A program made the translations under genes and the position numbers. From assembly GCF_030068445.1 (NCBI RefSeq), contig NZ_JAQPOK010000041.1, positions 1-64,000 of the forward strand: 64,000 bases of DNA, in the 5' to 3' direction. The stretch is from Roseofilum halophilum BLCC-M91. Lineage in GTDB: Bacteria; Cyanobacteriota; Cyanobacteriia; Cyanobacteriales; Desertifilaceae. The notes below the pieces were generated by a model. It was not told the origin of the DNA. It made no database searches and was given only the letters and a program-made list of their open reading frames with translations. Below are positions 28,935-37,723 of the stretch, in pieces; positions within the stretch are counted from its first letter, which is position 1, and each line of letters starts with the position of its first letter.

Positions 28935-31900
28935 TCACTCCATGGCTCCATTGGCTTGAAGGGTAGAGATCGCGGCTGGAGTTAAGCCTTCAATTTCGGC
29001 AATCTTCATCTCTGCATAGGGACGTGCTACCCGCAGGGTGTTCATCAATGCTCCCTGGTTCACATCCCAGAGTTTAATCGTCTCGTCTTCGCTGCCACTG
29101 GCTAAGGTGGTAGCGTTGGCACTCAAGGAGAGCGATCGCACCCCTTCGTTATGTCCAGTTAAGGTATGCAGGCAGTTCCCGGTGTTTGGATTCCAGATTT
29201 TGATGGTGCGATCGCTGCTCCCACTGGCTAAAATTGCTCCATCTTGACTCATCGCTAACGCATGAACCCAATGATGATGAGCGGGCAACGTCTGCAAGCA
29301 GTCCCCCGTTTCCCAATTCCAGAGCCGCACCGTAGTATCATCACTACCACTGGCTACAATTGATCCTTGCGAACTCGCAGCCAAAGACCCCACCCAATCC
29401 TGATGTCCGGTTAAAATGCTCAGGCATTCCCCCGTTTGCAGATTCCAGAGGCGAACGGTCAGATCGTCGCTGCCGGTTGCCAGCACTTCCCCATTGCCAC
29501 TGAAGGCTACCGTGCGCGTGGGGCGAGTATGTTCCTCGAATGTATACAAACACTCCCCCGTATGGGTATTCCAAACCCTAGCCGTTTCATCCCCGCTTCC
29601 CGTGGCTAGAAGTTTCCCATCGGGGCTGAAGCGCACGCACCAAATGGCATCTTCATGACCGGTGAATGTGCGAAGTAAGCGCCCCGTACTCACTTCCCAT
29701 AACTTCACCATGCGATCGCCGCTCGAACTGGCCAAAAGCTGACCATCCGGACTAAAATCCACCGATTGCACCGTAGCCAAGTGACCTGCCAACGTCTTCA
29801 AGCATTCCCCGGTTTTCACGCACCAGAGCCGCACCATACGGTCTAAACTACCACTAGCCAACAGTTGACCATCCGGACTCAAGGCTACCCCCCAAATCCA
29901 ATTGGTGTATCCCTGCCAAGATTTTTGGCACTTTCCCGTCCGTACATCCCACAGTTTAACAAAATTATTGACGCTGCTACTAGCCAGGGTTTTGCCCCCA
30001 TCATGGGGATTAAAAGCTACTTGCCAGATCCAGTTGGTATGGCCGTATAAAACATGCAGGAGTTCCCCCGTACCCACATCCCAGATAACAATGGTTTTAT
30101 CATCGCTTCCACTGGCTAAAAGATTGCCATCGGGACTAAAGGCTACGGAATGCACCCCATTCTGGTGTCGGTGCAGGGTTTGCAAGCAGTCCCCCGTGTC
30201 CACATCCCAGAGCTTGACGGTGCGATCGTCACTGCTGCTGGCCAGCAGATGACCGTGGGGACTAAATGCTACCGACCACACCCAATTCTCATGACCTTCT
30301 AACACCTTCACCTCGCCGGTTTCTCGATCCCACAGGCGGATGGTCATGTCATTACTACTACTGGCGATCAGGTCACTTTCTTGGCTCAAGGCGACACAAC
30401 ACACCCCTTCCGTATGACCGGTGAAGGTATGCAGACATTGGGGCTGTTCGGGGTGGGAAAGACTCCAAAGTTTCACTAAGCGATCGGCTGCTCCGGTGGC
30501 TAAATTTTGACTATCGGCACTAAAAACCACGGAGCGCACGGTTTCTTGATGCTCTGTTAAGGTGGCAATACAGTCCCCATTGGAGAGATCCCAGAGTTTT
30601 ACGGTTTTATCGGCGCTGCCACTGGCTAAAAGATTACCATCGGGACTAAAAGCGATGGAGCGCACCCAACCTTGATGACCTTGAATGGTTAAGAAGGGTT
30701 GACTGTCGTCGAATCCCCAAAGGCGAATGGCTCCATAGCCATCACCGATCGCCACTAATCGTTCTTTAGGGCTAACGGCGAGGCAAAAAACGGGGCCGAA
30801 GACATCGGTAAATACGGAGCCAACAAAGTGACATTGGCTAAAGTCGGTGTGGTTGAGGTTGTGTCCTTTGAGGTAGGCTTGGCGGATGGGGAGTTGGGAA
30901 AAGTTGGTATGGGAGAGGTTGATTTTCAGTTGACAGAGGAGGTTGATCAGGTTGCCAGCAGCGTATCCGAGAAATTTGGGGTTGGTAGGGGCGGGTTTGA
31001 AACCCGCCCCTACGCGCAATTTGTGTAAAAATTGTTCGATCCAGGGGCGGGGATTTTGCAGGTCGATGAGGTTCGTCAGGTAGTCGGCAATGGGTTGGAG
31101 AATCAGGCGGATTTGACTTTCGCGCACGTAGTCTTTGGCGGTGGCTTTGATCAGAGCATGGCTGTTGAAGAGGTTGAGATTTCCGGTTTGCAGTTCGGTG
31201 CAGATTTCTTGGATGAAGCGGTTGGTGAGGTATTCCATCACCACGTTTTGCAGGGTGGTGGTGATGGGGGTAAGACTGCTGGAAATGGATTCAACCAGCG
31301 ATCGCCCCACTAAAGAGTATAGAATTTCGATTAGTTGGCGGCGATCGGGCTGTAGGGGTTGCCCCATCATGTCTTCTTGCAGGGTTTCTGGGGTGACGGG
31401 TTCCCGGTTGATGGCTAACCAATAGAGGATATGTTGTTCTGGGAGGGAGAGGCGCTGCCATTGTTGATCGAGGACTTCGCAGACATCCTGAATGGCGATC
31501 GCCTCCCCACGGTTTAAGTAGTTTGCCGCACTCCCCCCATACAGCTCCTGAATGCGAGTGGCAATCAGTTTCAGCACCAGGGGATTCCCATTGCAAGAGT
31601 CCGTGAGTTGCTGGTTCACTGTGGCACTTGCATCCAAACCCTTAGCTTTCAGAATCTCCGCAATTGCCCCCTCATCTAACCCCTGTACTTTCCACACCCT
31701 CACCGGTAATTTTGGCCCTTGCAGCGCGTTAATCGCCTTCGGTTTTTCCCGACTGGTGAGCATTAAGCAGCCTTGATGCTCCGTTTCCCCCAACCGCGTC
31801 AGGAAATCGCCATAATCCTCATATCCTGGGCGATAGCGTCCGGCAGTCGTTTGCGGTTGCAGAATGGCTTCCACATTATCAAAGACCATCAAACAGCGAT

Positions 31901-32972
31901 GTTCCTTCAGATGGTCAATCAGTTGGGTAATTCTGCGGTGGATGGGGACATCTTCTGGGTTGTCCGGTTCATAGTTGAACAACTGGTTGATTTCGTCGAG
32001 CATCTCGCTCAAAGGAGGAGCTTCTCGCAAGGAGCGCCAAATAATGGCTTCAAAGTCCCCAGCGACTTCCTGGGCGAGTTTCACCGACAGGGCGGTTTTG
32101 CCAATTCCCCCAATACCTAACAGCACCAGCACCCGACAGCGATCTTGGGTAATCCAGGTTTGCAGGGTGTCTAGTTCGTCGTTGCGTCCATGGAAAATGG
32201 AGACATCGGGCGCTTCTCCCCAGTGTTGTTTGTTCGTTTTGGGTGACCTAGGGGCGGGTTCTGTAGGGGCGGGTTTGAAACCCGCCCCTACGTCGGAATG
32301 GGAACCGAAACCCGCCCCTACGTCGGAATGGGAACCGAAACCCGCCCCTACGTCGGAATGGGAACCGAAACCCGCCCCTACGTCGGAATGGGAACCGAAA
32401 CCCGCCCCTACCTGGGAATGGGAACCGAAACCCGCCCCTACAAGGTTGGTTAAGGGCGGAATATTAAGCAATTCCGGCTTGTATTTAAAGAAGATCGGGA
32501 TCAGATAATTTCGTTGAGTCGTGCTATTCCCGCGAATGCCAAATTTGTGATAGATGTTACGGATCTGTTTGCGGATCGTTCCGGGGTTTTTGTTCAGGGA
32601 GGTGGCAATTTCTTCGTCGGTTTGGTTCTGGAGGAAGAGCTGTAAAACCGGTTTTTCTTGGGTAGAGAGGCGATCGCAAATTTCCTCAAAGTCTTCTGCA
32701 CTCATGCTCTGGAAGTTCTTCAAGTAGGGAATATTCACCAACTCCGGTTTATATTTGAAAAATAGAGCAACCAGAAAAAAGCGCCCTCTCCTACGCCCAT
32801 CATCTTTCTTGATGCCAAAAGAGTGATAAATACCGCGCCGAATTTTCTGCACATCTGATTTATTACTGGCTACCGTCGTAGCGATTTCCCGATTATTAAG
32901 CAATTCGTGCAAAACTTGCCGCTCTGTAGGGTTGAGTCCTGCGAGTATGCGATCGAACTGCTGTTGATTCAT
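28935..32972 (-). CDS. STAND NTPase with tandem HTH domains and 14 WD40 repeats
   Basis: A 1345-residue protein. Two homologous HTH units (about 8-80 and 95-172) each end in an FFKYKPEL-x-NIP motif. A repeat-derived linker of VGAGFGSHSD units follows (about 177-241). An NB-ARC/NACHT-type NTPase comes next (Walker A GIGGIGKTAL near 287, Walker B CLMVFDNVE, a TSRE sensor-like motif), then a helical region with pentapeptide-like LSHTNFSQ and LNHTDFSQ. From about 726 there are 14 WD40 repeats, enough for two seven-bladed propellers. STAND proteins are ligand-triggered switches in signalling, programmed death or anti-phage defence. The HTH pair suggests DNA binding instead of a nuclease effector. 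Function is inferred. Confidence 0.9.
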   Translation of the reverse strand: MNQQQFDRILAGLNPTERQVLHELLNNREIATTVASNKSDVQKIRRGIYHSFGIKKDDGRRRGRFFLVALFFKYKPELVNIPYLKNFQSMSAEDFEEICDRLSTQEKPVLQLFLQNQTDEEIATSLNKNPGTIRKQIRNIYHKFGIRGNSTTQRNYLIPIFFKYKPELLNIPPLTNLVGAGFGSHSQVGAGFGSHSDVGAGFGSHSDVGAGFGSHSDVGAGFGSHSDVGAGFKPAPTEPAPRSPKTNKQHWGEAPDVSIFHGRNDELDTLQTWITQDRCRVLVLLGIGGIGKTALSVKLAQEVAGDFEAIIWRSLREAPPLSEMLDEINQLFNYEPDNPEDVPIHRRITQLIDHLKEHRCLMVFDNVEAILQPQTTAGRYRPGYEDYGDFLTRLGETEHQGCLMLTSREKPKAINALQGPKLPVRVWKVQGLDEGAIAEILKAKGLDASATVNQQLTDSCNGNPLVLKLIATRIQELYGGSAANYLNRGEAIAIQDVCEVLDQQWQRLSLPEQHILYWLAINREPVTPETLQEDMMGQPLQPDRRQLIEILYSLVGRSLVESISSSLTPITTTLQNVVMEYLTNRFIQEICTELQTGNLNLFNSHALIKATAKDYVRESQIRLILQPIADYLTNLIDLQNPRPWIEQFLHKLRVGAGFKPAPTNPKFLGYAAGNLINLLCQLKINLSHTNFSQLPIRQAYLKGHNLNHTDFSQCHFVGSVFTDVFGPVFCLAVSPKERLVAIGDGYGAIRLWGFDDSQPFLTIQGHQGWVRSIAFSPDGNLLASGSADKTVKLWDLSNGDCIATLTEHQETVRSVVFSADSQNLATGAADRLVKLWSLSHPEQPQCLHTFTGHTEGVCCVALSQESDLIASSSNDMTIRLWDRETGEVKVLEGHENWVWSVAFSPHGHLLASSSDDRTVKLWDVDTGDCLQTLHRHQNGVHSVAFSPDGNLLASGSDDKTIVIWDVGTGELLHVLYGHTNWIWQVAFNPHDGGKTLASSSVNNFVKLWDVRTGKCQKSWQGYTNWIWGVALSPDGQLLASGSLDRMVRLWCVKTGECLKTLAGHLATVQSVDFSPDGQLLASSSGDRMVKLWEVSTGRLLRTFTGHEDAIWCVRFSPDGKLLATGSGDETARVWNTHTGECLYTFEEHTRPTRTVAFSGNGEVLATGSDDLTVRLWNLQTGECLSILTGHQDWVGSLAASSQGSIVASGSDDTTVRLWNWETGDCLQTLPAHHHWVHALAMSQDGAILASGSSDRTIKIWNPNTGNCLHTLTGHNEGVRSLSLSANATTLASGSEDETIKLWDVNQGALMNTLRVARPYAEMKIAEIEGLTPAAISTLQANGAME
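30985..31013. repeat. GTAGGGGCGGGTTT palindrome inside the STAND gene
   Basis: GTAGGGGCGGGTTT and its exact reverse complement are separated by one G, giving a perfect 29-bp palindrome in the coding sequence, translated as RVGAGFKPAPT. The same element is found between genes elsewhere (55798-55859, 57691-57750, 26104-26161). Confidence 0.95.
32250..32442. repeat. In-frame 30-bp minisatellite derived from the GTAGGGGCGGGTTT element
   Basis: From 32281, 30-bp units starting CCCGCCCCTACGTCGG repeat at 32281, 32311, 32341 and 32371 (identical) and 32401 (variant), ending with a partial unit at 32431. An inverted GTAGGGGCGGGTTT arm precedes at 32263. On the coding strand each unit adds ten residues (VGAGFGSHSD). 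The unit length keeps the frame open. Confidence 0.97.
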
Positions 32973-34041: not shown

Positions 34042-34083
34042 GGCGATCGCCCAAATGACTCAAGTTCCTGAATAGGCGATCGC
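34042..34083. repeat. 42-bp direct repeat, left copy, flanking the Uma2 gene
   Basis: Starts and ends with HIP1 octamers (GCGATCGC) around CCAAATGACTCAAGTTCC. Identical to 34759-34800. Together the two copies bracket the Uma2 gene. Confidence 0.95.
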
Positions 34084-34098
34084 CTTTTGCTCCCACTT

Positions 34099-34674
34099 TT
34101 ACCAAATCAAGTGAAGATTCAAAACAAATCCCGGTAAAATATCCCCTCCTGATAAGGTGAGAGGATTGTCTAGAACTTGTTTGGCTTGTCCCTGACGATA
34201 AATTTCGACTTGACGGTTCTTCGGGTTAATGAGCCAACCTAACCGAGTGCCATTGTCCATATATTCCTGCATTTTTGCTTGTAGTAGCTTTAAGGAATCG
34301 CTCGGCGATCGCAGTTCAATCACAAAATCTGGAGATAAGGGTAAAAATTTAGTCTTTTGTTCTGCGGTTAAAGCCTCCCATTTCGCTAAGGGTATCCAAG
34401 ACGCATCGGGGGAATAATCTGCCCCATTCGGAAGAGTAAACCCACCCGATGAATCAAAGACAATTCCTAATTGAGTTTGTCTATTCCATAGGGCTAACTC
34501 TAGGTTAAGGTCAGAATTACGCTTACTGGTTTCCCCTCCTGTGGGTGGCATAACGATCAAGTCCCCTTTAGCGGTTCGTTCTAATCTTAAGTTACGGTTG
34601 GCAGCACACAGTTGATAAAATTGTTCATCCGTAATCGAGGCGGTTTCTGGATTGTTCAAAATCAATGCTGTCAT
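34099..34674 (-). CDS. Uma2 family endonuclease (DUF820)
   Basis: A 191-residue protein of the Uma2/DUF820 family, abundant in cyanobacteria and related to PD-(D/E)XK nucleases. Motifs are GDLIVMPPTGGETSKRN, then SGGFTLPNGADYSPDASWI, and the core PDFVIELRSPSDSLKLLQAKMQEY with its Asp/Glu pair and downstream Lys. The C-terminus LSGGDILPGFVLNL is typical. Biological roles are unproven; many copies per genome suggest mobility. Exact 42-bp direct repeats on both sides suggest insertion or recombination as a unit. Confidence 0.88.
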   Translation of the reverse strand: MTALILNNPETASITDEQFYQLCAANRNLRLERTAKGDLIVMPPTGGETSKRNSDLNLELALWNRQTQLGIVFDSSGGFTLPNGADYSPDASWIPLAKWEALTAEQKTKFLPLSPDFVIELRSPSDSLKLLQAKMQEYMDNGTRLGWLINPKNRQVEIYRQGQAKQVLDNPLTLSGGDILPGFVLNLHLIW

Positions 34675-35128
34675 GTTTTTATCTCGCTGAACCTATCAAA
34701 ATCCTAACAGATCCCATGCAGCGAAGACTAATCTCTAGGGGGTGCTGATGCCCAGGAGGGCGATCGCCCAAATGACTCAAGTTCCTGAATAGGCGATCGC
34801 GAAGCGATGAGTCCCATTATCGCCAACCCCTCAAAATAACATTCAGATGTCCATAGACAGCCTGGGAACGACCTGCTTTAATCTAAGAAATGCCAAGAAA
34901 ACAAGCAAAATATTATTTTTATGCTCAAATTCTTAAGAAATTCTAAAGTCCTCGCTTCGGAACGACTTAATCCCTTGGGACGGAATGATATTGCTTGAGT
35001 TCCAACAGTAGATTTTTATCTAGTCCATTCGGGTGTGAGGGGTATTGTGTCTCTAAATAAATCGGGGAAAGGAACAGACTTGAGATTCCTGATCTACCAA
35101 GATTTCTGAAGTTAACCCAATCAAAATT
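34675..35128. other. Spacer upstream of the COP23 gene
   Basis: A 454-bp spacer holding the right 42-bp repeat and HIP1 sites. From about 34840 the DNA is AT-rich and non-repetitive, and probably carries the promoter and leader of the downstream exported-protein genes. No intact ORF or RNA gene is recognised. Confidence 0.45.
34759..34800. repeat. 42-bp direct repeat, right copy, flanking the Uma2 gene
   Basis: Identical to 34042-34083, same orientation, 717 bp apart. Confidence 0.95.
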
Positions 35129-36115
35129 ATGAAATTTAAATTCAATCGCTCCAACTGGTTCTCTCGCGTGTTGATGGGAACCGCAATTCTCGCAACTTTG
35201 GGCGTTATGGTTCCTGAAGTCGTCAATGCAAACGGTGCTGAAAGTCAGGATACCTTGGCTGTTTATCCGCGACTTTCTGCCCAAGAACTGGCAGAACATC
35301 GGCGCAAGCAAATTGAGGAACTGGTCAAGGAGATCGAAAAAACTCAGGCAGAAATGAACGCCAATCCTCAACAGTTTTGTCAACAAGAAAATGGGCAAAA
35401 ATGTGCGGTTTTGAGTAACCAACTTCAGGTAACCGCCGGACTCTTCTATAGTATGGGAGAAGCCTTGCAAGAGCAAAACAATCCACAACAAGCACAGAGG
35501 CAGTTTGAAAAGGCAGGTAGCTTTACGGAGCAGGCCAATCGAATTCAATCACTAACTCGTGGTATCCAAAGTGGCTATTACACTGAAGGCACTGGAGGTT
35601 CGTATCCAGGTTTAGATGAAAATCTGGTGAGCTATCAGGAGGCTGAAAAATCAGATTTGCAACAAGAAGCAACTGGATTCTTCCAACAAGGTGAGAACCA
35701 ATTAGCTTATCAAAGTATTGGCCAAGTTTCTAAAGTTGGGAAACATTTCGACTGTCGCCAAAATAATGGTCAGTGGCAAACAGTTGTCAACAAGAATTCT
35801 CAAAGTCACCCTCTGATTCTTTGGGGCGATCTAGGAGGATACTCAACTGAAGCTCGCTGTAACGCTGTTTCAGCACGTTTAAACAATCTGGAATCTCATG
35901 TTGTTCAAGATGTAGCTCAAACATTTAAGGTGGATGAGATCGAGGTCGATCAGAAGAAAGTTACGGTGGTTTGCGTACCCGATCGCGGTCGATGCAACAG
36001 CGAAAATGCAATCTTTACTCTGACGCGAGCCTCTAGACCCAGTAACTGGGAGATTCAAGAGCAATTTATCGGTTTGGTTAACGACCCCGGATCGGAGGCT
36101 CCCATCCGCAATTAA
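35129..36115 (+). CDS. Exported protein with C-terminal COP23 domain
   Basis: A 328-residue protein with a signal peptide (hydrophobic VLMGTAILATLGVMV, cleavage near VNA-NG). The middle (about 50-150) is helical and Gln-rich with a TPR-like pattern (FYSMGEALQEQNNPQQAQRQFEKAGSF is TPR in style). From about 200, FDCRQNNGQWQTVV, LILWGDLGGYSTEARCNAVSARLNNL and VVCVPDRGRCNSENAIFTL match the COP23 family, first described as a circadian-oscillating membrane-associated protein in cyanobacteria. The four Cys residues may form disulfides. It shares leader style (VPEVV-x-A) with the next gene, suggesting a common origin or operon. Confidence 0.75.
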   Translation: MKFKFNRSNWFSRVLMGTAILATLGVMVPEVVNANGAESQDTLAVYPRLSAQELAEHRRKQIEELVKEIEKTQAEMNANPQQFCQQENGQKCAVLSNQLQVTAGLFYSMGEALQEQNNPQQAQRQFEKAGSFTEQANRIQSLTRGIQSGYYTEGTGGSYPGLDENLVSYQEAEKSDLQQEATGFFQQGENQLAYQSIGQVSKVGKHFDCRQNNGQWQTVVNKNSQSHPLILWGDLGGYSTEARCNAVSARLNNLESHVVQDVAQTFKVDEIEVDQKKVTVVCVPDRGRCNSENAIFTLTRASRPSNWEIQEQFIGLVNDPGSEAPIRN

Positions 36116-36201
36116 TTCAGTTCATTCCGTAGATTGGGCTGGAATACATAACCCAATCTACCCTCTACCATTCATCTTTTGCACAACTATCCAAACTGAC
36201 A

Positions 36202-36681
36202 ATGTTTAATTTTCTTCGTTTTCCAAAAATTCTGCCCATGCTCGCTGGAGCGATCGCCCTATTTTCTGTAACTGGAATCGTTCCTGAAGTCGTTCGCGCT
36301 GATAGCTCTTTAGCGACAGGAAACTACCGAATTGCACAAAGCTCAATTGAGGGACTTGAGGGACTTGGTGCGATTGAGGGAGTGGAAGCGCTTCAGCAGG
36401 TCATGGAAAAAATGCTCAAGACGTTGGCAGAAACGTCTTACGCTCAGGGCGAAACTGCTCTAGAGGAACAAGATTTTCAACAAGCAATGAACCACTTTAA
36501 TGAGGCAATTGAACGTTACTCAGAATATGCCGAAGCTTATGTTGGGAGAGGGGCAGCCCGCGCTCAATTGGGCGATCAATCCGGCGCTGTTTCTGATTTA
36601 CAAACTGCCGCCAGTTTGTTCCAAAAACAAGGCAATACCGAAGCCTACCAGCAGATTCAGCAAGTCTTACAAGGACGGTAA
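36202..36681 (+). CDS. Exported TPR protein
   Basis: A 159-residue protein with a signal peptide resembling that of the upstream gene (MLAGAIALFSVTGIVPEVVRAD). After a linker come at least two TPR units (about 78-150): AETSYAQGETALEEQDFQQA, MNHFNEAIERYSEYAEAYVG and GAARAQLGDQSGAVSDLQTA. Such proteins scaffold protein contacts in the periplasm. It follows the COP23 gene by 86 bp and precedes the first SLH gene by 8 bp, so an operon is likely. Confidence 0.75.
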   Translation: MFNFLRFPKILPMLAGAIALFSVTGIVPEVVRADSSLATGNYRIAQSSIEGLEGLGAIEGVEALQQVMEKMLKTLAETSYAQGETALEEQDFQQAMNHFNEAIERYSEYAEAYVGRGAARAQLGDQSGAVSDLQTAASLFQKQGNTEAYQQIQQVLQGR

Positions 36682-36689
36682 GTAGTCAA

Positions 36690-37061
36690 ATGATATCAAA
36701 ATTTCTTCGCAAATCATTGCAAAACACATTGAAAATTATGGTCATTGCTCTGGCTATATGCGGAGCGATCCTTCTCCCACAAAGCATTCAAGCTCATACT
36801 TCTAGTTTGGTTCCTGCTAACTCATCGCAACTTGAAAATACCCCAGATATCTCTCAACTAATAGCCCAACGTTATTATAGGGATGTAGTACCTACCGATT
36901 GGTATTTTCAAGCTTTACAAAGTTTAGTAGACCGCTATGGAGTCATTCCAACTCCAGATCCTGACGACTCACTTGAGCGATTTAGACCAAACCAACCAGT
37001 AACACGAGCAGAATTTGCTTCTGTGCTAAATCAGGCTCTCGATATCATCTCTAGCCGCTAA
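36690..37061 (+). CDS. Small exported single-SLH-domain protein, copy 1
   Basis: A 123-residue protein. The signal peptide (IMVIALAICGAILLPQSIQA) is followed by a short linker and one S-layer-homology-like domain: YYRDVVPTDWYFQALQSLVD, RYGVI, then FRPNQPVTRAEFASVLNQAL. SLH domains bind pyruvylated secondary wall polymers or peptidoglycan, and occur in cyanobacterial outer-membrane porins; here there is no porin barrel. Closely similar to the next gene, with near-identical DNA over the signal peptide, showing recent tandem duplication. Confidence 0.75.
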   Translation: MISKFLRKSLQNTLKIMVIALAICGAILLPQSIQAHTSSLVPANSSQLENTPDISQLIAQRYYRDVVPTDWYFQALQSLVDRYGVIPTPDPDDSLERFRPNQPVTRAEFASVLNQALDIISSR

Positions 37062-37070
37062 AAACACAAC

Positions 37071-37111
37071 GCGATCGCCTTTCTGGGTGTCGAGGGGGCG
37101 ATCGCCACAAC
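37071..37111. repeat. 41-bp HIP1-bounded element, copy 1
   Basis: Starts GCGATCGCCTTTCTGGGTGT and ends GGCGATCGCCACAAC. Identical to 37607-37647. One copy follows each SLH gene, so the duplicated unit included the 3' flank. Confidence 0.95.
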
Positions 37112-37152
37112 CCAAATAATTTTTTGTACACAATCAGCCACATTATCAACTC

Positions 37153-37578
37153 ATGAAAAACCTAAATGTTTTGCACAAATTATTGCAAAATACATTGAAA
37201 ATTATGGTCATTACTCTGGCCATATGTGGAGCGATCCTGCTTCCACAAAGCATTCAAGCTCATACTTTTAGTTTGATTCCTGCTAACTCATCGCAACTGG
37301 AAAATACTCATTACCCAGTTGAGTCACTCGATATCGAAAATGCACCTGAGATATCCCAAATAACGAGCGTGAGTCAATATAGGGATGTAAGACCTACTGA
37401 TTGGTATTTTCAAGGTTTACAAAGTTTAGTAGAACGGTATGGTGTAACTGTTCCTGGAGATTCAGATGGGCTATTTAGAGGAAATAAGCCAGTAACACGA
37501 GCAGAGCTAGTTGCCACACTCAATGCTGCTCTCGATCGCATGAATCAACTCATTGCTGCTGCGACTGCTGACTACTAA
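37153..37578 (+). CDS. Small exported single-SLH-domain protein, copy 2
   Basis: A 141-residue paralogue of the preceding gene. The signal peptide and first linker are almost identical (IMVITLAICGAILLPQSIQA). An 18-residue insertion follows (HYPVESLDIENAPEISQ-like), then the SLH-like domain YRDVRPTDWYFQGLQSLVE, LFRGNKPVTRAELVATLNAAL. The coding parts have diverged more in the domain than in the leader. Function as for copy 1: envelope-associated, otherwise unknown. Confidence 0.75.
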   Translation: MKNLNVLHKLLQNTLKIMVITLAICGAILLPQSIQAHTFSLIPANSSQLENTHYPVESLDIENAPEISQITSVSQYRDVRPTDWYFQGLQSLVERYGVTVPGDSDGLFRGNKPVTRAELVATLNAALDRMNQLIAAATADY

Positions 37579-37606
37579 AGGTCACCGATCGACTAAACCA
37601 TGTCAA

Positions 37607-37647
37607 GCGATCGCCTTTCTGGGTGTCGAGGGGGCGATCGCCACAAC
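37607..37647. repeat. 41-bp HIP1-bounded element, copy 2
   Basis: Identical to 37071-37111, same orientation, 536 bp apart. Confidence 0.95.
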
Positions 37648-37723
37648 AAGCCCCTTAAATTTGAACTGGAGACACGCGATCGCATTCCGAACCCATCAGG
37701 ATGCGATCTTTTTCTTCCCTCCC

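Follow-up and report, generated by a model that had tools for sequence, protein, structure and literature searches.

Why should the DNA before, between and after a row of genes be better kept among related species than the genes themselves? The question is raised by four small genes on the plus strand of the cyanobacterium Roseofilum halophilum BLCC-M91, located within a stretch of 64,000 nucleotides (hereafter the window) that is part of contig C41 (72,474 bases; NZ_JAQPOK010000041.1) in a draft assembly (4.85 Mb, 169 contigs). The COP23 gene (35129-36115, 328 amino acids) encodes an exported protein of the TPR-COP23 family, and the TPR gene (36202-36681, 159 amino acids) is a TPR-only paralogue of it. 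SLH1 (36690-37061, 123 amino acids) and SLH2 (37153-37578, 141 amino acids) each encode a signal and one SLH domain of the porin-head type, the latter stopping where the stalk of porins starts. The intergenic gaps are 86, 8 and 91 bp, and the products exceed the Pfam gathering cut-offs (COP23, PF14218, 48.3 bits against 27; TPR_2, 31.6 against 27; SLH, PF00395, 27.1 in SLH1 and 27.4 in SLH2 against 20.8). An initial annotation had described four open reading frames in line with short gaps, coding for envelope proteins; the reading-frame calls, all on the plus strand, and the Pfam scores bear out the arrangement, and the domains and signal-peptide-like leaders make export probable. Comparison of this genome (G000) with five other Roseofilum genomes (G001-G005; G004 is Roseofilum acuticapitatum BLCC-M154) suggests an answer to the question: the gene run is likely to be one of several alleles at a hypervariable locus for exported proteins, whose content is probably reshuffled through homologous recombination within conserved blocks. 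A literature search found no paper on the locus, which is not proof of absence; subscription journals lay mostly outside its coverage.

Four blocks, all on the plus strand, make up the conserved frame. Block A (34829-35155) comprises the promoter and 5' leader region and the first nine or so codons of the COP23 gene; positions 34829-35155 are 92% identical to G005 and 34833-35222 are 91% identical to G004, while the 295 noncoding bp of the block match at 272, 279 and 286 positions in the three pairs (92.2%, 94.6% and 96.9%). Element E is an intercistronic sequence of 41 bp with HIP1 palindrome octamers at its bounds. It is present twice, as E1 (37071-37111) and E2 (37607-37647), and the two copies are exactly identical, as the initial annotation had reported. 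It contains a hairpin (37071-37105; -21.6 kcal/mol, z -3.5; second copy, z -2.4). Block S (37112-37185) consists of a 5' untranslated region of 41 bp, identical at 37/41 to 39/41 positions (90-95%), and the first eleven or so codons (MKNLNVLHK...) of the gene after E. Block T (37643-37715) is a tail with an intrinsic-terminator-like hairpin (37678-37708, z -3.1) followed by five T; it is identical at 72/73 and 71/73 positions (97-99%), and related hairpins follow the TPR gene of G004 and occur in G001 (z -4.4 and -5.3). A consensus scan of the region gave three promoter-like sites against 4.8 expected and one terminator-like site against 2.8, none above background, and did not call T because it allows loops of 3-8 only. 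No known RNA family came close to its gathering score, the best match reaching 18.8 of the 181.5 bits required.

At least three of the four blocks (promoter, HIP1 hairpin, leader start and terminator) are found in 4/6 Roseofilum genomes, G000 included, and the exported genes between them differ across all four. The order COP23, TPR, SLH, SLH is that of G000. G004 contains TPR-COP23, TPR, COP23, two Trypsin_2 genes and a DUF4344 (metallopeptidase) gene. G005 contains a gene for a tectonin-type lectin protein of 488 amino acids, E, a gene for 175 amino acids and T. G001 contains a truncated TPR gene, a ricin-B lectin gene, E, a gene for 195 amino acids, a second E, a gene for 368 amino acids with a lipobox-like leader (by eye) and T. 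The family of the 175- and 195-residue proteins has no significant family or PDB match (best Pfam DM9, E 0.067). The COP23-TPR pair is retained in one of the five relatives (G004), and the TPR copy in G001 lacks its first 21 codons. Since the four-gene order of the window occurs in none of the five, the failure of conservation in relatives that the initial annotation had named as counting against a conserved four-gene system is what was found for that order. Two side observations concern these arrays: the 488-residue tectonin-type gene has internal repeats of about 200 bp (L116 10950-11558), and in G001 (L115 8793/8794) a shortened WD40 gene runs straight into the 5'-truncated TPR gene (21 codons missing), which would fit the loss of about 3.5 kb compared with the window, or an assembly error.

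The positions at which homology ends are informative. In G005, block A runs into nine shared codons (two of which differ in G000) and then into the 488-residue tectonin-type gene rather than COP23. Likewise, E1 with the untranslated region and the first eleven or so codons is kept in G001 (37068-37185, 90%) and G005 (37073-37185, 96%), where it precedes the gene for 195 or 175 amino acids, unrelated to SLH2. Homology is thus lost abruptly just inside the leader codons both at block A (G005) and at block S (G000 against G005 and G001). E2 and the tail (37607-37715) have a 98% identical counterpart of 109 bp in G004, located after the DUF4344 gene, with no SLH gene there. It follows from this pattern in three genomes that the element belongs to the locus and not to the SLH gene, and the earlier proposal that the flank was duplicated together with the SLH gene does not hold. 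All six copies of E that were found lie between genes. The idea of a dispersed mobile repeat was rejected, with two copies in the own genome: the 36-base core has no further copy there at up to three mismatches, and among 47 forward matches of GCGATCGCC-N10-30-GGCGATCGC genome-wide the only two exactly repeated spacers, by eye, are those of this locus. SLH2 shares 10/11 of its first residues (MKNLNVLHK and one more) with the 175-residue protein of G005 and no other significant stretch, and looks like a chimera in sequence, with the leader start of a G005/G001-type gene and an SLH1-type body; a short stretch common to SLH1, SLH2 and the G005/G001-type gene lies at the switch (by eye).

Exchange in blocks is favoured because the identities of A (92-97%), S (90-95%) and T (97-99%) stand against a median of 78% for noncoding sequence. 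That background comes from aligned samples of G000 and G004, in which 16 noncoding runs measured 40 bp or more, a small set in which block A was masked by a mechanical antisense reading frame; one run, upstream of the WD40 gene beside the locus, reaches 0.92. The COP-TPR gap has an identity of 0.72-0.78 by two methods, and the proportion of synonymous differences (pS) between orthologues is 0.24-0.43 in three of four reference pairs outside the porins. In the proposed mechanism, a fixed frame (A with its first codons, hairpin E, S and terminator T) would be kept between species while gene bodies are replaced by homologous recombination within the blocks, so that an incoming body would at once be expressed and exported. 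SLH1 and SLH2 would be the fillings that this species has before and after E. The pattern is observed directly; the exchange is what we infer from it. If it is true, a single locus fixes the signals for expression and export and varies only the secreted protein, which would offer a mat-forming cyanobacterium a simple way to diversify what it shows to neighbours or host.

Several points weigh against this interpretation. The frame is present in only 4/6 genomes: all that G002 retains is 40 bp of T, on its UPF0175 side, and G003 has no match to the locus blocks. All the genomes are drafts, and the arrays of G001 and G005 lie near contig ends. The Uma2 genes of G004 and G005 are nearly identical (pS 0.04), so some of the similarity may reflect recent transfer of the whole region. 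The different contents may also derive from repeated deletion from a larger ancestral array, and the blocks may be conserved by function alone. The strongest competitor is given a minor share of the probability: ordinary turnover of an island in a plasticity zone rich in toxin-antitoxin and Uma2 genes, with random gain and loss, blocks that are merely conserved regulation and no exchange mechanism. The minus-strand neighbours fit such a zone, as they include nucleotidyltransferase, UPF0175 and Uma2 genes together with genes presumed from their sequence to be PIN-like, and so does the absence of HIP1 enrichment at breakpoints described below. Against this, homology ends at two places (A of G005, and S) shortly after entering the leader codons of unrelated genes, and random insertion would not be expected to hold a start codon and leader start in register.

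HIP1 palindromes at some of the block edges raise the possibility of a preferred crossover point. The left edge of E is an intact GCGATCGC in 5/6 copies, with differing left neighbours; in G001 the switch from T to E sequence falls inside the octamer, and in G004 a T fragment starts at one. Both ends of a 42-bp repeat around Uma2 are also HIP1. HIP1 is absent, however, from both leader junctions, from the outer end of A and that of T, and from the right edge that E1 and E2 have in common. In all, five kinds of locus edge lie at HIP1 and at least five elsewhere, all chosen after being seen. Sequence was also sampled more widely (about 0.43 Mb of G000, about 0.45 Mb of G004 and pieces of four other genomes). 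Within it, a shared HIP1 was found at 5/279 homology breakpoints against 99/6981 interior windows (1.42%; p 0.36), which is no enrichment, and at an end of 8/636 local exact repeats, with about 7.8 expected by chance. In the first control, whose sides were shifted independently, HIP1 on either side gave 15 against 11.3, no excess. An apparent excess on both sides (4 against 0.15 within 5 bp; 3 against 0.11 within 2 bp) was gone with interior windows, which replaced the independent shift because that null breaks the homology between sides. One study reports signs that site-specific recombination may occur at sites of the HIP1 type, and no evidence that they act in homologous recombination (PMC4390886). 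Because HIP1 is not enriched at breakpoints, its role here is speculative, and it seems improbable that genes are naturally exchanged at this locus by crossing over at the palindromes, with the HIP1-bounded E, T and Uma2 repeat letting exported bodies swap behind a fixed promoter and leader. If it were so, mats of Roseofilum would have a stock of wall-binding and sugar-binding proteins open to exchange, and HIP1 would gain a chromosomal role that can be tested. The HIP1 edges of this locus would allow an old question about the palindrome to be examined at a defined site, although the sampled sequence supports no general rule.

What, then, are the two SLH fillings of this species' allele? Both match only the SLH end of the iron uptake porin profile NF033921 (positions 7-60 for SLH1 and 1-70 for SLH2), with scores of 51.3 and 90.8 bits, under its cut-off of 100. 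Neither has a Pfam OprB match, and both end after the SLH domain; in alignment the C-terminus of SLH2 (...IAAATADY) lies where porins continue into the stalk. The profile match and an alignment with 32 other SLH segments place both in the N-terminal porin subtype, and among solved structures the closest chain is 8bz2_A (E 0.0012; residues 74-130). The ligand-groove residues of SLH domains, Trp, Gly and TRAE according to PMC10628300, are all present in SLH2, and SLH1 retains Trp and TRAE with Pro in place of Gly. A scan of the genome_contigs collection with SLH2 gave no locus, and short SLH proteins appear to be uncommon among the genomes searched (59 genomes, among the matches listed, and a set of 12 genomes). 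Among the matches listed were one of 133 amino acids in G017, one of 115 amino acids with half an SLH repeat in G006, some of 230-250 amino acids (G010, G012) and two at contig ends (G058, G011).

SLH1 and SLH2 correspond to the signal-plus-SLH head of SomA/B-type porins and stop short of the coiled-coil stalk and the barrel. The role that seems likeliest for them would be to sit in the periplasm on the pyruvylated, peptidoglycan-linked polymer bound by porin SLH domains, and there to modulate or decorate the tethering sites of the outer membrane. In Synechocystis, loss of Slr1908 raises vesiculation and Slr1841 is essential (PMC8707739); occupancy of SLH-binding sites could therefore matter. 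The proposed function is weakened by several points. Neither protein has either of the two porin-SLH cysteines, which in the 32 other SLH segments are both present in 27 and both absent in 5, never singly. According to PMC10628300, an isolated SLH domain of OmpM did not bind sacculi, and the sites are built by three SLH domains from separate chains. A single-sequence AlphaFold model of SLH2 (pLDDT 45) was too poor and was not used. Natural porin heads without a porin would nevertheless be useful for asking if a free head occupies outer-membrane tether sites.

The age of the pair and the constraint on it bear on two further explanations. Synonymous divergence (dS) between SLH1 and SLH2 is 0.43 (bootstrap 0.27-0.64), against 0.34, 0.30, 0.27 and 0.39 for the full-length G000/G004 orthologues of TPR, Uma2, WD40 and mutS; the 45-residue COP leader alone gives 0.42 for these genomes. 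The pair dates back to about the time of the species split, or further, and the duplication was not fresh, contrary to what had been supposed. The ratio of nonsynonymous to synonymous change (omega) is 0.11 in the leader (residues 12-52) and 0.72 (0.32-1.5) in the SLH part. The proportion of nonsynonymous differences is higher in the SLH part, a contrast reached in 0/2000 permutations (pS contrast 0.09, not strong). Positive selection on the domain is not confirmed, as the point value of omega is below 1. It is quite unlikely that both genes are decaying remains of truncated porin genes: a match to the first part of a porin and the weak constraint on the SLH part would fit decay, but both reading frames are uninterrupted, have a leader and a stop and score above the Pfam cut-off for SLH, the leader is strongly constrained, Trp and TRAE are retained in both, no barrel remnant lies downstream and the porin pair of the genus is located elsewhere, beside mutS. 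Least probable is the initial annotation's own reading of a four-gene surface system with a recent duplication of SLH gene and flank and selection on the SLH domain, since the gene order, short gaps, exact repeat and nonsynonymous contrast behind it are real, but the divergence is as large as between species, E2 with T occurs without an SLH gene and E1 with S before unrelated genes, and no other Roseofilum genome has the order.

The VPEVV leader noticed earlier in the first two genes is also real, although it is a family leader of paralogues. The TPR protein of the window aligns over nearly its full length with the TPR-COP23 proteins of relatives (e.g. E 1e-23), so the first two genes are paralogues and share the leader for that reason. 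The relatives' TPR-COP23 leaders read MVPEVA, MLPEVV, VVPEAA and VVPEVA, and the motif is a family trait rather than the mark of a special targeting system. A scan of the genome_contigs collection with the COP23 alignment found three loci, a paralogue of the COP23 gene lies elsewhere in the own genome (G000:C149), and a 78% identical copy of the TPR gene is found in G004. Separately, a TPR-COP23 paralogue in G002 (G002:C67 28332-29009, L092) is broken by a stop codon.

As to expression, the 8-bp gap between TPR and SLH1 and the terminator after SLH2 are compatible with a single transcription unit, and the E hairpin with its conserved leader could mark the start of a second. Upstream lies the Uma2-family gene (34099-34674, minus strand; Pfam), which is upstream of the cluster in G000 and downstream in G004 and G005. 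It is flanked by the exact 42-bp HIP1-bounded direct repeats (34042-34083 and 34759-34800), the second of which is also upstream of the cluster in G004. Further away, the minus-strand WD40 gene (28935-32972) has near-identical VGAGFGSHSD repeats at 31975-32508, near its N-terminal third.

Full-length matches to NF033921 or OprB were found neither in the own genome nor in G001. In all four relatives with porins (G002-G005), a tandem pair lies between a small gene presumed from its sequence to be pterin-dehydratase-like and one similarly taken to be mutS. In the own genome the contig stops 223 bp beyond mutS (G000:C72 end, L100), and the dehydratase-like gene was not found in a search without a positive control; in G001 neither gene was found. 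The position of mutS and the missing dehydratase-like gene indicate that an assembly gap best explains the apparent absence, and the tandem SomB-type porins of G000 probably lie in it; loss of porins, or their replacement by SLH heads, was rejected. Between G004 and G005, the second porin (L084 3057-4751, L085 8740-10431) has a dS of 0.98 against 0.39 for the first and 0.29 for mutS, which suggests exchange or faster change.

Parts of the locus resemble known systems. SLH1 and SLH2 share with SomA/SomB-type porins (NF033921) and with OmpM of other diderm Terrabacteria a signal-like leader and one N-terminal porin-subtype SLH domain (QxTSVSQxRDVRPTDW..., IAAATA end), but they are without the coiled-coil stalk, OprB barrel and Cys pair. 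The C-terminal domain of the first gene belongs with the COP23 family (PF14218; 48.3 bits, cut-off 27) and, as in other Roseofilum paralogues, is fused to a TPR-like N-terminal part. Some edges lie at GCGATCGC, often within GGCGATCGCC, and recall the HIP1/GGCGATCGCC-associated recombination of Synechococcus PCC 7002, as cited in PMC4390886. Unlike that case, the Roseofilum locus is chromosomal and no recombinase was identified. Here, moreover, breakpoints in the sample show no HIP1 enrichment and other edges lie off HIP1. Hypervariable genomic islands and cassette loci with conserved flanks are a known general type, and the locus resembles these in its conserved ends and in content exchanged between close species. 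In the Roseofilum locus, by contrast, homology spans the promoter and untranslated region into the first codons, the leader start is kept while the body changes, and conserved elements also lie between the genes.

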